A DNA stretch of 64,000 nucleotides from Encephalitozoon hellem ATCC 50504. Taxonomy: Eukaryota; Microsporidia; Unikaryonidae. The stretch is from contig NC_018473.1 in NCBI RefSeq assembly GCF_000277815.2, positions 62,001 to 126,000 of the forward strand, written 5' to 3'. A model generated the notes under the pieces. The model worked only from the letters and a program-made list of their open reading frames with translations. It was not told the DNA's origin and ran no database searches. The translations under genes and the position numbers were made by a program. This document shows, piece by piece, positions 31,233 to 35,570 of the stretch (position 1 is its first letter; each line of letters opens with the position of its first letter).

Positions 31233-33572
31233 ATGGGAATCAAGGATGCGTTTGGGATGGATGGGATAAGAAGGCTCTTTGAAGACGACTCCTTTATGGT
31301 TGATCCTCAGGACAAAGCATCGATTGTGAAGTATATTTCATCGCCGGACCTCAAGAAGCAGGTGCAGGCAGCAAAAAGCTTGATATGCAGGATGCAGTGT
31401 GGAGAGGATCTTTCGAAGCTCTGCAACAGCGTCATAAGGGCAATAGACACGAGGGATCCTGATCTCAAGAGAATGCTGAACTTATACCTTGTAAGATACA
31501 TACAGGAATGGCCTGCCAAGCAACTAATATGCATCAACACGATGCTGAAGGACTTTGGAGACGAAAACTGCGAGATGAGGCACTGTGCAATCCAGGATAG
31601 TGGGCTTCTGGGAGACGGCGTTGTGATAAAAAACTATGTCAATCCTCTCAAGGAGCATGGGAGAAGCCCATTGCCTGAAACACGAAGGAAGGTGGCCGAT
31701 GCATTACGGAACTACTTCCGAAGAGATTCAGAGCTGTTCTATGGCTCTGGTCTCTGCGACCTACTGAAGGATCTGGTGTTTGACGAGGATCCTGGGGTGT
31801 GTGCATCTGCGCTGAACAGTGTCCGAGTCATTGAGGAGGAGACTCGGATCTTGTTTACAGAGGACATCCATAAGCTTCTCAGAAGAAGCATGGAGCTTGG
31901 GAGCATGGAAGTTCTTGGAAGTCTTTTGGAAGTAATGAGGAACAGGGCAGAGGATTTTTCTGATCCATCTCCATTGGCCAGCCTACTGGCTGCAAGCAAT
32001 CCTCGAATATTCTATCTAGCATCCTCCCTGGTTATTTCGATTGATCCCTCTTACAAGCAGACGGTGTTTGATCATCTGAAGGGGTTTTTTTCATGTGATG
32101 ATGAGGAGCTGTATCTTATGCTTGACTATGCTGAGTCTCTCCTCAAAGACGTAAGCTATGACAATTCCTGCTTTGCAATCTATCACAGCGATAAGAAGTA
32201 CAATAAGATAAAGAAGCTTAGGCTACTATTCAAGAGGCTAGATGCCATTTCCGTGAGGGAAATAGAAAACCAATGCAGAGATGAAGAGCTTCTTGGCGTG
32301 ATTCTGAAGGAGTCGCTTGATGCAGATTATCTGATAGAAGAGCCGTTCAGGTGCATCCACAGGGCTGATGAGATGATTCGAGTGCTTTACGAGGCGGACC
32401 AAGTTTCTGAAAGGTGGGAGGAGCTGATAAGAACATTTTTAATGGGTGTGGGGGAGGTACAGGAAAGGCAGAAGTACATTTATCTTTGCGGAAGATATGT
32501 CCTCGAGGTTCCTCCCGGGGTCGTGAATATCCAGAACTTGAGCATTCCCTCCCTCACGAACGAGGTCATTAGATTTTATCTCAATCTTCACAGAAGAGGG
32601 GTGCTAGACTTGGAAGAAACCCTGGTATATCTGCGCATGCTGCAGAAGGGCTCGAGGGATAGAGTTAGGATGGTGATCAGCGAGCTAAAGGCACGGGGGG
32701 TCGGAGTATTTAAAACATTCTGTGACATCAAGAGAAGAGACCTTGGCAGTCCTGACTCGAACAGAGCTGCTTCTGTAAAGCCTAGGGAAAAGTCCAGCTC
32801 GATACTCGATGTAAAGCCGTATTACGGGCTCGAGGAGAATAGGCTTATTGCCAACGATTCTGAAAAGATCTCCGAGGAGTTTCCTGGTGGAGAGAGGCCC
32901 GTACCTGAAAGAAGCCTCTCCTCTGAAAAGTGTTCGGGGAGTGTTGATAGCCATTCGAGCACGGCTGAAGAGAGCAGCACACTTCCCCCTAGTTACACAC
33001 ACCATCCAGCCCTGTTCCTGAGCAAGCATGACGATGAAAATGTCTGGCTGAGGTTTGCAGAGAGTAGTGGTAAAATAAGCGGAAAAAAGGTGGGAGAAGA
33101 GGAATCGACGAGACTGATAGACACAAACGGATTAAAGGGGATTCTTAGCGTCTCCGATGGAAAGGTTGTCCTTCAGGTTGACATACTGGAAAGCCCACTA
33201 GTTATTTATTACAAGTGCAAGGGCAGACTCAACAGCACCAAGGTTGATGGGGAAGGGACGTTTTCCCTCTTCACAATAAACCTCTCGGTCGTCAACTCGA
33301 AGTTCAGTCTGACAATAGGAAAGTCCACATATGGAATCTACCTAGGGATCAGAAGCCTGATGATTCCACACAGATGTTCAAAGGAGGAGTTTGAGAAGGG
33401 ATTCCAAGAACTCAAGGACTACGTCCTTCTAGACGGGCTCGACATCGAAAGGACGCATCCGGTGGACAGCTACTCGTTCTCATTCACTGTTCTTGGATCA
33501 AGGTTTTACGGGAAGCACCTGGATAACCAAGTAATCCTGAAGGGTTCAAAAAAGCTGCTAGGACTCTTTTAA
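31233..33572 (+). CDS. beta-adaptin (AP complex large subunit)
   Basis: 779 residues from the ATG at 31233; the frame begins at 31209 only through TTG. The N-terminal 500 are the adaptin alpha-solenoid: AAKSLICRMQCGEDLSKLCN, LKRMLNLYLVRYIQEWPAKQ, then ICINTMLKDFGDENCEMRHC, matching the block shared by AP-1, AP-2 and AP-3 beta subunits. A polar hinge (about 510-600) and a beta-rich C-terminal region follow. It would link cargo sorting to vesicle coats at Golgi or endosome membranes. LYLVRY leans to AP-3 and the next segment to AP-1/2, so the complex is undecided. Confidence 0.85.
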   Translation: MGIKDAFGMDGIRRLFEDDSFMVDPQDKASIVKYISSPDLKKQVQAAKSLICRMQCGEDLSKLCNSVIRAIDTRDPDLKRMLNLYLVRYIQEWPAKQLICINTMLKDFGDENCEMRHCAIQDSGLLGDGVVIKNYVNPLKEHGRSPLPETRRKVADALRNYFRRDSELFYGSGLCDLLKDLVFDEDPGVCASALNSVRVIEEETRILFTEDIHKLLRRSMELGSMEVLGSLLEVMRNRAEDFSDPSPLASLLAASNPRIFYLASSLVISIDPSYKQTVFDHLKGFFSCDDEELYLMLDYAESLLKDVSYDNSCFAIYHSDKKYNKIKKLRLLFKRLDAISVREIENQCRDEELLGVILKESLDADYLIEEPFRCIHRADEMIRVLYEADQVSERWEELIRTFLMGVGEVQERQKYIYLCGRYVLEVPPGVVNIQNLSIPSLTNEVIRFYLNLHRRGVLDLEETLVYLRMLQKGSRDRVRMVISELKARGVGVFKTFCDIKRRDLGSPDSNRAASVKPREKSSSILDVKPYYGLEENRLIANDSEKISEEFPGGERPVPERSLSSEKCSGSVDSHSSTAEESSTLPPSYTHHPALFLSKHDDENVWLRFAESSGKISGKKVGEEESTRLIDTNGLKGILSVSDGKVVLQVDILESPLVIYYKCKGRLNSTKVDGEGTFSLFTINLSVVNSKFSLTIGKSTYGIYLGIRSLMIPHRCSKEEFEKGFQELKDYVLLDGLDIERTHPVDSYSFSFTVLGSRFYGKHLDNQVILKGSKKLLGLF

Positions 33573-33696
33573 GTATACCAATAAACAGATAAAGAGGCAA
33601 AGGGTTTATTTATAACTAGCAGGCATGCTCCATCTTAGTGGCACAAAGGGCCCTTCCACCTGACACCACGTGGAGGTGTGGAGCTACATCAGGTTG

Positions 33697-33759
33697 CGAA
33701 GTCAGATCTTGCTTTGTCATCAGCTCTCAGTCTGGGGCGGCAAATATCATCACTCTTCG
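33697..33759 (-). ncRNA. C/D box snoRNA
   Basis: Read on the minus strand, in order: terminal stem CGAAG (33755-33759), box C GTGATGA (33747-33753), a 16-nt guide (33731-33746), box D' CTGA (33727-33730), box C' CTGATGA (33717-33723), an 11-nt guide (33706-33716), box D CTGA (33702-33705), and CTTCG (33697-33701) closing a perfect 5-bp terminal stem. All four boxes are exact. The D' guide is complementary to CTGGGGCGG, a conserved segment of large-subunit rRNA domain V, so it should direct a 2'-O-methyl G there. It lies in a 219-bp gap between convergent genes. Confidence 0.8.
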
Positions 33760-33791
33760 GGGGTAAGGAACCAAAAAATATTTTATGACAA

Positions 33792-35570
33792 TTATTTATT
33801 ACCAAACTTGCTCAGCACAGACCTCAGTGCAGAGTCGTGGCGCTTTCCAGACGCCTCCTTCCTCAAATACTCACGGCACAGACTTCTAAGCCCCTTGCTC
33901 TTCCCTAGAGCCTTAGACATCGCATCAGGGTCCAGATACATAACAATGTCAACCGCTGCAGGCCCAACTATCTCAAAGCACCTTACAACACCCTCCACCA
34001 TCTCCTCCTGCTTCCATATGTTCCTTCTGGCCAACCTCGACAGAAATGAGACAACAAAGTTCTTCAGGTTTGGAAACTTCAGCAGGGTTTGGATCAACGT
34101 CCGAACAATCAGGAGAGGCAGCTCCTTCTCCAGGGTGGTTAGCGTAAACAGAAAGTCGCTCTCGCTGAATCTTGGCGATTTGAAGCAGAGATCGAGAATC
34201 CGTATGGCCTTCGAGACGTCCGGAATCTTGTGTGCAAAAATCAGAAGCTCGGAACATTCTATAACCTTCAGAAACGTATTCAATGACTCGGCGTCAACAA
34301 CATAGTCGGGAATGTATTTGTATACATCGGACTTCTCCAAATACGGTAGAAAATCATATATAAATCGGTCATCGTCCGAGTAGTTGTCCAGTAGGTAGAC
34401 TCTGAGCTGGCCCTTGACAACCCTCCTCCTAAGGATCGTCTGTATGAGGGCCTCCTTTCTTTGGTCTTCTCCCATAGACTTGATGAGGTTGATCACAGCG
34501 CTGTCCTCCTTTTCTTTCAATAGATCGACAAAGCTGTTCATGCTCTCTTGCGTGTCAACAGCGTCCAATGCAAGAGGCAGGGCATCGTCATTCGATTTCG
34601 AAACCTCGATCAGTTCCTGGTCGCTCAGCTTAAAGTAGGATGCATATTCGCCAAGAGTCTCGTAGTTCTCCTTGAAAACTTCCAGAACATTTTCTCTAGA
34701 GACATTCACTCTTCCCTCGGAAATCATCTCCACAATCTCCTTAACATGTGCCCTCCTTTCCTTGACCATATGGCCCAATATCTCCACAGTCTCATCTGTT
34801 ATCTTCTCCAGAACCTTCTCTATGTCGAGCGAAACAAGATGCTTAACAATGTCAACCCTGAAGTACTGCCTGCTCTCAAGAATCAGGTCGACCATGGCGT
34901 CGTAAACATCCCGGTTCAACAGGTATGCATACATAAAGAATGAATGGCTGTACCTCTCGTTCTTGCTCATAAACACTAGTGCATCCAACGAGTCTCGGGG
35001 ATCAAGCATCCTCACAATCCTCGAAATCCCTACGTCTATTGCACCCGCCTCCTTGATCCTTCCAAGCAGATTAAAGGCTTCGGTAACAGGGCCTGGACGC
35101 TCCTCCTCCTGCTTCTCATGGAAGTATGTCTGGATGGTGTTCTCAATCTCAATGTTGCTGCTTTTGACAAGCGTCTCAAAAACAAGGTCGATAAGAAGGC
35201 TGAAGGGATCAAGCTCCCTCTTTACCTCTTCTCCCACTTTCCTTCCCCGCACCTCCGTAAAGTCAAAGAGCTTCATCTCAGAAGCAAAGCGCCCAAGAAT
35301 GCTCGGAATCTTTTTTGCTATTCTTTTGTTCAGCATGTGCACATGGTAGTTGACAGACCTCTGTGCATACCTCGGACACGCCATCCCCTTGCTATGTGCA
35401 TGCCTGAGGTATGCAAGGAGTGCCACAGCACTGTCTCTATCCAGTACCTTCAATGCAGTACAGAAGAAGTACACCGTTTCTATTGGACTCATGTTCCTGA
35501 GGTAAAAGATAAGAAAGGTCAGGCCCTCTTCAGAATACCTCTCGACTAGGTGGTATCTTATCTTTTCCAT
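33792..35570 (-). CDS. PTA1: symplekin/Pta1-like mRNA 3'-end processing scaffold
   Basis: 592 residues, all helical repeats. The C-terminal block LPLLIVRTLIQTLLKFPNLK, then FVVSFLSRLARRNIWKQEEM and VVRCFEIVGPAAVDIVMYLD closely follows the symplekin C-terminal domain. Symplekin/Pta1 is the scaffold of the cleavage and polyadenylation factor and binds the CTD phosphatase Ssu72, whose gene is also in this window (42720-43301). It is shorter than yeast Pta1 (785) and human symplekin (about 1,270). The ATG at 35570 is the first in frame. Confidence 0.82.
   Translation of the reverse strand: MEKIRYHLVERYSEEGLTFLIFYLRNMSPIETVYFFCTALKVLDRDSAVALLAYLRHAHSKGMACPRYAQRSVNYHVHMLNKRIAKKIPSILGRFASEMKLFDFTEVRGRKVGEEVKRELDPFSLLIDLVFETLVKSSNIEIENTIQTYFHEKQEEERPGPVTEAFNLLGRIKEAGAIDVGISRIVRMLDPRDSLDALVFMSKNERYSHSFFMYAYLLNRDVYDAMVDLILESRQYFRVDIVKHLVSLDIEKVLEKITDETVEILGHMVKERRAHVKEIVEMISEGRVNVSRENVLEVFKENYETLGEYASYFKLSDQELIEVSKSNDDALPLALDAVDTQESMNSFVDLLKEKEDSAVINLIKSMGEDQRKEALIQTILRRRVVKGQLRVYLLDNYSDDDRFIYDFLPYLEKSDVYKYIPDYVVDAESLNTFLKVIECSELLIFAHKIPDVSKAIRILDLCFKSPRFSESDFLFTLTTLEKELPLLIVRTLIQTLLKFPNLKNFVVSFLSRLARRNIWKQEEMVEGVVRCFEIVGPAAVDIVMYLDPDAMSKALGKSKGLRSLCREYLRKEASGKRHDSALRSVLSKFGNK

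Follow-up and report, generated by a model that had tools for sequence, protein, structure and literature searches.

The 64,000-nt stretch of DNA analyzed here (referred to as the window) corresponds to positions 62001-126000 of contig 6 of the Encephalitozoon hellem genome, which comprises 2,251,784 bases in 12 contigs. In this window, an adaptin-like gene on the plus strand (31233..33572; PF01602) and a gene on the minus strand whose homologues are named symplekin (33792..35570; PF12295) face each other, in agreement with a preliminary description that placed a small RNA between convergent genes. The symplekin gene product is 74% identical to its counterpart in E. cuniculi and 71% identical to that in E. 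intestinalis, and no relative was found in the viral collection. Downstream of the symplekin gene, 32 nt past the end of its stop codon, a box C/D snoRNA is encoded on the same strand (33697..33759); the gene's own AATAAA, at 33800, overlaps its final codons upstream of the snoRNA. A second minus-strand AATAAA (33605..33610) is located 15 nt 3' of a predicted ribozyme that follows the snoRNA. At the 5' end of the snoRNA, CCCCC (33759..33763, minus strand) follows an A+T-rich stretch and resembles the microsporidian CCC start signal, which has been reported to mark genes whose 5' leaders are very short (PMC2803860). Since CCC was also found 3-20 nt before 20 of the 39 ORF starts in the window (uncorrected ORFs), this signal is weak on its own. 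Transcribed intergenic regions that are free of ORFs and may represent non-coding RNAs have been described for the E. cuniculi transcriptome (PMC3629993).

The minus-strand stretch 33759-33697 is a genuine box C/D snoRNA with the layout CGAAG-A-GUGAUGA-(16)-CUGA-(3)-CUGAUGA-(11)-CUGA-CUUCG. The C box (GUGAUGA, 33753-33747), the D' box (CUGA, 33730-33727) and the D box (CUGA, 33705-33702) are exact, while the C' box (CUGAUGA, 33723-33717) agrees at 6 of 7 positions, with a C at the expected purine; the earlier statement that all four boxes are exact was therefore slightly overstated. The presence of all four box elements, the spacings given for them (guides of 16 and 11 nt and a D'-C' spacer of 3 nt) and the perfect 5-bp terminal stem (33759-33755 with 33701-33697, CGAAG/CUUCG) can be read in the letters as claimed. 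The window contains the C-D'-C'-D pattern a single time, against none in 400 dinucleotide-shuffled windows. Two Rfam families match this snoRNA, both under their gathering thresholds, namely SNORD31 (28.7 bits, gathering 40) and snoU31b (26.5 bits). At E<=10, it ranks first among six SNORD31 places in the genome (E 2.3e-4); such a threshold is permissive, and SNORD31 matches, all under the cut-off, were obtained in 13 of 14 control genomes as well. A strict scan that combined the C/D boxes with rRNA complementarity, covering 317 kb from 40 partly overlapping sources (about 14% of the genome), found this snoRNA as its sole place, scored twice because one source (L074) overlaps the window. Proteins of the C/D RNP are encoded as well, as a profile search of the genome placed fibrillarin at one place and the Nop domain at three places, all over the cut-offs.

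The D' guide (UGCCGCCCCAG, 33732..33742, minus strand) forms 11 Watson-Crick pairs with the LSU rRNA of this species at CUGGGGCGGCA and is located 1 nt from the D' box, with the fifth base before D' opposite the second G of GGGG in the LSU. The check proposed earlier, an alignment of both guides to the species' own rRNA with a match of at least 10 nt as the mark, thus came out in favor of the D' guide at 11 bp; complementarity of at least 10 nt upstream of a D or D' box was found for this guide and not for the D guide. As 13 of 300 permutations of the C-rich D' guide also reach 11 pairs somewhere in the LSU and SSU, it is the site that gives the claim its strength. By the fifth-base rule and numbering, the paired G is presumably the exact counterpart of yeast Gm2619. 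Yeast snR67 has been reported to guide Gm2619 and Um2724 (PMC2806949), and Gm2619 is listed as the equivalent of E. coli Gm2251 (PMC11121408). It is well supported that the D' guide would serve the G site of snR67 and SNORD31, i.e., yeast Gm2619, and 2'-O-methylation is predicted at the second G of CUGGGGCGG, the base that had been proposed before. One exact 18-nt match to the guide was found in the viral collection, inside an ORF of a phage-like contig, and was taken as chance.

The D guide (33706..33716, minus strand) had been thought to resemble an LSU segment about 100 nt further along, but this part of the description did not hold and no target was found. With U2724 at the position that we take it to have in the Rfam LSU consensus, the D guide was compared with the Um2724 counterpart in the species' own LSU by means of the Rfam eukaryotic LSU alignment; no match was found there, as the homologous segment differs. 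Its best run in this LSU consists of 8 pairs, one of them G-U, on the opposite strand of the helix that carries the Um2724 site, and is equalled by 246 of 300 permutations; for these reasons, the D guide was rejected as a guide for the Um2724 counterpart. It may be a relic or may be directed at another target. The name snR67 is therefore half supported, by the Gm2619 site and not by the Um2724 site, and of the preliminary description, the observation was confirmed and the interpretation partly supported. The complement of the D guide, ATCTTGCTTTG, is closer to the LSU segment of other eukaryotes quoted in that description than to the LSU of this species. The rDNA is located at contig ends, with LSU and SSU both in L007; the LSU site word occurs at 7 of 24 contig ends (8 kb each; L007, L008, L009, L012, L013, L019 and L022), and the 270 nt surrounding the site are identical across all 7.

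An HDV-like ribozyme beside the snoRNA was overlooked in the preliminary description. It is predicted at 33626..33694 on the minus strand, where cmscan found a full-length match to RF02682 (28.5 bits) on the same strand as the snoRNA that begins 2 nt past the snoRNA stem. The anatomy was read from the letters, and all elements of the nested double pseudoknot (P1, P1.1, P2, P3 and P4) are present. P1 consists of 7 bp (33694-33688/33664-33658, ACCUGAU/GUCAGGU) and P2 of 6 bp (33684-33679/33632-33627, GCUCCA/UGGAGC); an extra C (33678) separates P2 from P3 (33677-33675/33667-33665, ACC/GGU). The loop L3 (33674-33668) reads UCCACGU, and P1.1, which involves the GG at 33657-33656, comprises two G-C pairs (CC/GG) by inspection. 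P4 has 3 bp only (33652-33650/33642-33640, GGC/GCC). J4/2 (33638-33633) reads CUAAGA, that is, a C followed by N-A-A, and its first base, C33638, is the predicted catalytic C by the RF02682 alignment, a role that is ascribed to the J4/2 C in PMC10879173. HDV-like ribozymes cut at the base of P1 (PMC5640933), and the start of the RF02682 match predicts a cut between 33695 and 33694, 2 nt past the snoRNA stem. These features fit a putative complete HDV-like self-cleaving ribozyme at 33694-33626. With 61 of 81 candidates scored, no other place in the genome matches RF02682 at E<=10; the match (E 0.0024) scores below the gathering threshold of the family (28.5 versus 44 bits). This E threshold is loose, and 8 of the 14 control genomes also gave matches to the family, all of them under the cut-off. 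RF00094 had no match in the genome. RF01787 had three weak places, of which the ribozyme locus was second (E 0.9; 56 of 256 candidates scored), and cmscan of the two other loci found SRP RNA alone, in L006.

Several statistics bear on whether this ribozyme could be a chance fold. A loose topology descriptor matched 68 of 400 shuffled windows, with 79 matches in total, so the topology by itself is weak; none of these 79 matches carried the loop UCNNCGU when inspected by eye. The window has a single instance of the ribozyme core pattern, and 100 shuffles had none. With the core fixed, both helices were obtained in 352 of 2,000,000 shuffles, and all these chance statistics leave out the position and strand of the ribozyme beside the snoRNA. 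In nested minimum free energy (MFE) folding, the ribozyme lacks P1 and P3 and folds no better than shuffles (z -0.16), and the same is true of the whole snoRNA-ribozyme unit (z +1.35). The string CTAAGATGG alone is uninformative, since it occurs at 8 places versus 8 in a reversed control, and an 18-nt ribozyme string had no match in the viral collection.

Searches of large sequence collections with the core pattern returned 33 matches across 32 loci in genome_contigs and 3 matches in viral_contigs. Among the 37 core-pattern places, including the one in the window, P1 with 7 of 7 pairs, P2 with at least 5 pairs and P3 were found together at three, namely the window, Faecalibacterium longum (L039) and the first of two places in Eubacterium (L040); the second Eubacterium place and Blautia (L055) were partial only. 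Compared with F. longum, both sides are altered with pairing kept in 5 of the 7 base pairs of P1 and in 3 of the 6 of P2 in the window (8 double changes), while the letters of P3, most of L3 and J4/2 are unchanged; compared with the first Eubacterium place, P1 and P2 show 7 double changes, the homologues available for these comparisons being few and bacterial. The Faecalibacterium and Eubacterium ribozymes are located a few nucleotides 3' of short hairpin-like inverted repeats. In the window, the 3' strand of P1 also has a potential rival partner in the D-box segment AUCUGAC (-7.1 kcal/mol for this pairing, versus -8.4 kcal/mol for P1 proper); this register ties with P1 in pair count and was the one chosen for the window by the script that screened the 37 places. 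Such pairing may represent a switch or a coincidence of the common CUGA.

The 3' ends of other small RNAs in the genome provide a point of comparison. The U3 snoRNA (minus strand, contig C2 105956-106137; L079:1501-1682; 45.6 bits, over the cut-off) reaches TTTTT after 1 nt, suggesting an end of the Pol III type. A guide C/D snoRNA resembling snR38 (minus strand, C12 73602-73665; L083:1502-1565), which scored 41.4 bits with Rfam snoR38, just under the gathering threshold of 45, and whose D' guide GUUAUCCCUG is antisense to the LSU, reaches TTTTT after 2 nt. Directly 5' of this RNA lies GGGTCCCCC, just as CCCCC precedes the window snoRNA, both being CCC-like. TTTTT was also found 6 nt beyond the partial Rfam match of the SRP RNA. 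By comparison, the window snoRNA is followed by no run of at least 4 T for 143 nt downstream, to a point within the adaptin gene. Hence, a T-run ends both of the other C/D RNAs examined, whereas the window snoRNA meets the ribozyme instead. Genome-wide, the D'-C' pattern was found at 53 places versus 9 in a reversed control, and among 15 distinct places examined out of these 53, a C box, a D box and a stem were found at two, the window snoRNA and the snR38-like RNA; RF00016 gave two places, both weak.

The arrangement of these features suggests that the ribozyme probably makes the 3' end of the snoRNA within a compact minus-strand unit. A transcript would begin near the CCC signal, or would read through from symplekin. 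Within it, 63 nt would form the C/D snoRNA that directs 2'-O-methylation of the conserved LSU G (yeast Gm2619), and 69 nt that start 2 nt further on would fold as the HDV-like ribozyme. Self-cutting at the 5' edge of the ribozyme (33695|33694) would leave a snoRNA that ends 7 nt past the D box, which is within the range of mature C/D snoRNAs. The ribozyme would thereby substitute for the T-run 3' end of U3 and the snR38-like RNA, and the simplest order of such a unit would be the CCC start, the snoRNA, the ribozyme and, 15 nt later, the AATAAA. A more elaborate version, which we regard as rather a long shot, is a licensed switch in which AUCUGAC would hold the 3' strand of P1 and keep the ribozyme off until P1 is released by the C/D core proteins as they bind. 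Cleavage would then report correct snoRNP assembly and, because the unit sits just past symplekin, could at the same time control how much of its 3'-end machinery the cell contains.

The main sober alternative to a ribozyme-made snoRNA end is that the ribozyme-like stretch is a chance or dead fold and that the snoRNA 3' end arises by ordinary trimming of a longer transcript; it has this standing because the RF02682 score is under gathering and the helix comparison covered bacterial rather than sister genomes. Along with this score, the weak topology statistics (68 of 400) and the poor nested folding (z -0.16 and +1.35) would be expected of such a fold. We nevertheless consider it unlikely, given that the core pattern and all helices are present, that P1 and P2 show compensatory changes relative to F. 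longum, that, among the 61 of 81 candidates scored, RF02682 has a single place genome-wide at E<=10 and that the stretch is placed exactly beside the snoRNA on the same strand.

The ribozyme could, alternatively, chiefly serve the symplekin mRNA, in whose 3' flank it and the snoRNA would be situated, with the cut removing the poly(A) tail and thus regulating a factor of 3'-end processing. The shared strand, the distance of 32 nt from the symplekin stop codon to the snoRNA and the AATAAA 15 nt beyond the ribozyme are compatible with this role, as is the read-through past AATAAA that has been reported for E. cuniculi (PMC2803860). However, the AATAAA of symplekin itself (33800) precedes the snoRNA, the cut site matches the snoRNA end to 2 nt and CCCCC is located at the snoRNA 5' end, which makes this role for the ribozyme improbable. 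Least probable by far is a plain two-site counterpart of snR67 in an unremarkable neighborhood. The 11-bp guide at the G site and the two sites reported for the yeast RNA, Gm2619 and Um2724 (PMC2806949, PMC11121408), argue for such a counterpart, but no pairing of the D guide with the Um2724 counterpart was found and the ribozyme match would be left without an explanation.

If the ribozyme does make the 3' end of this snoRNA, it would represent a new role for HDV-like ribozymes and a eukaryotic parallel to the tRNA-linked theta ribozymes of phages. To our knowledge, few natural cellular roles of HDV-like ribozymes have been established. It would also mean that, in a genome that ranks among the smallest of eukaryotes, an RNA does the job of a protein, with a guide RNA freed without protein. 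No report of a natural ribozyme that processes a snoRNA was found in the titles, abstract starts and passages listed in searches of the open-licence literature for ribozyme with snoRNA, microsporidia with ribozyme, and Encephalitozoon with HDV. Because of the adjoining ribozyme, the locus far exceeds a routine snoRNA annotation, and 3'-end formation of microsporidian snoRNAs becomes directly testable.

Among known systems, yeast snR67, human SNORD31 and plant snoU31b share with the window snoRNA the C/D boxes and a D' guide directed at the same G of the LSU; unlike these RNAs, the window snoRNA has a D guide that misfits the Um2724 counterpart, a score below Rfam gathering and a ribozyme at its end. 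A snoRNA and a ribozyme are combined in one RNA in the snorbozyme, an artificial U3-hammerhead hybrid (PMC8002509), but this is described as a man-made hammerhead that cuts other U3 molecules and not as a processing device. The passages on ribozymes in PMC10948791 and PMC10622555 concern other uses. The fungal HDV variants described in PMC5640933 carry an extra nucleotide between P2 and P3, mostly a C, like C33678 in the window; in contrast to what is described for these variants, the first pair in the window is A-U rather than C-G, and loop E was not seen by eye in P4. P3, most of L3, J4/2 (CUAAGAUG) and the extra C that separates P2 from P3 are common to the window ribozyme and HDV-F-prausnitzii (RF02682); the window ribozyme differs from this family in P1 and P2 letters by paired changes, in a score under gathering and in its genomic setting. 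The gut-phage theta ribozymes (PMC10879173) are likewise HDV-like, with a cut site immediately adjacent to the 3' terminus of a stable RNA; they have been reported to cut within 5 nt of phage tRNA 3' ends and proposed to mature these tRNAs. They are described as minimal ribozymes without P4 at phage tRNAs, whereas the window ribozyme has a 3-bp P4 and adjoins a eukaryotic snoRNA, and it thus falls outside the theta class as delimited by the absence of P4 and a phage tRNA neighbor. The theta ribozymes are the functional precedent for a snoRNA 3' end made by a ribozyme.
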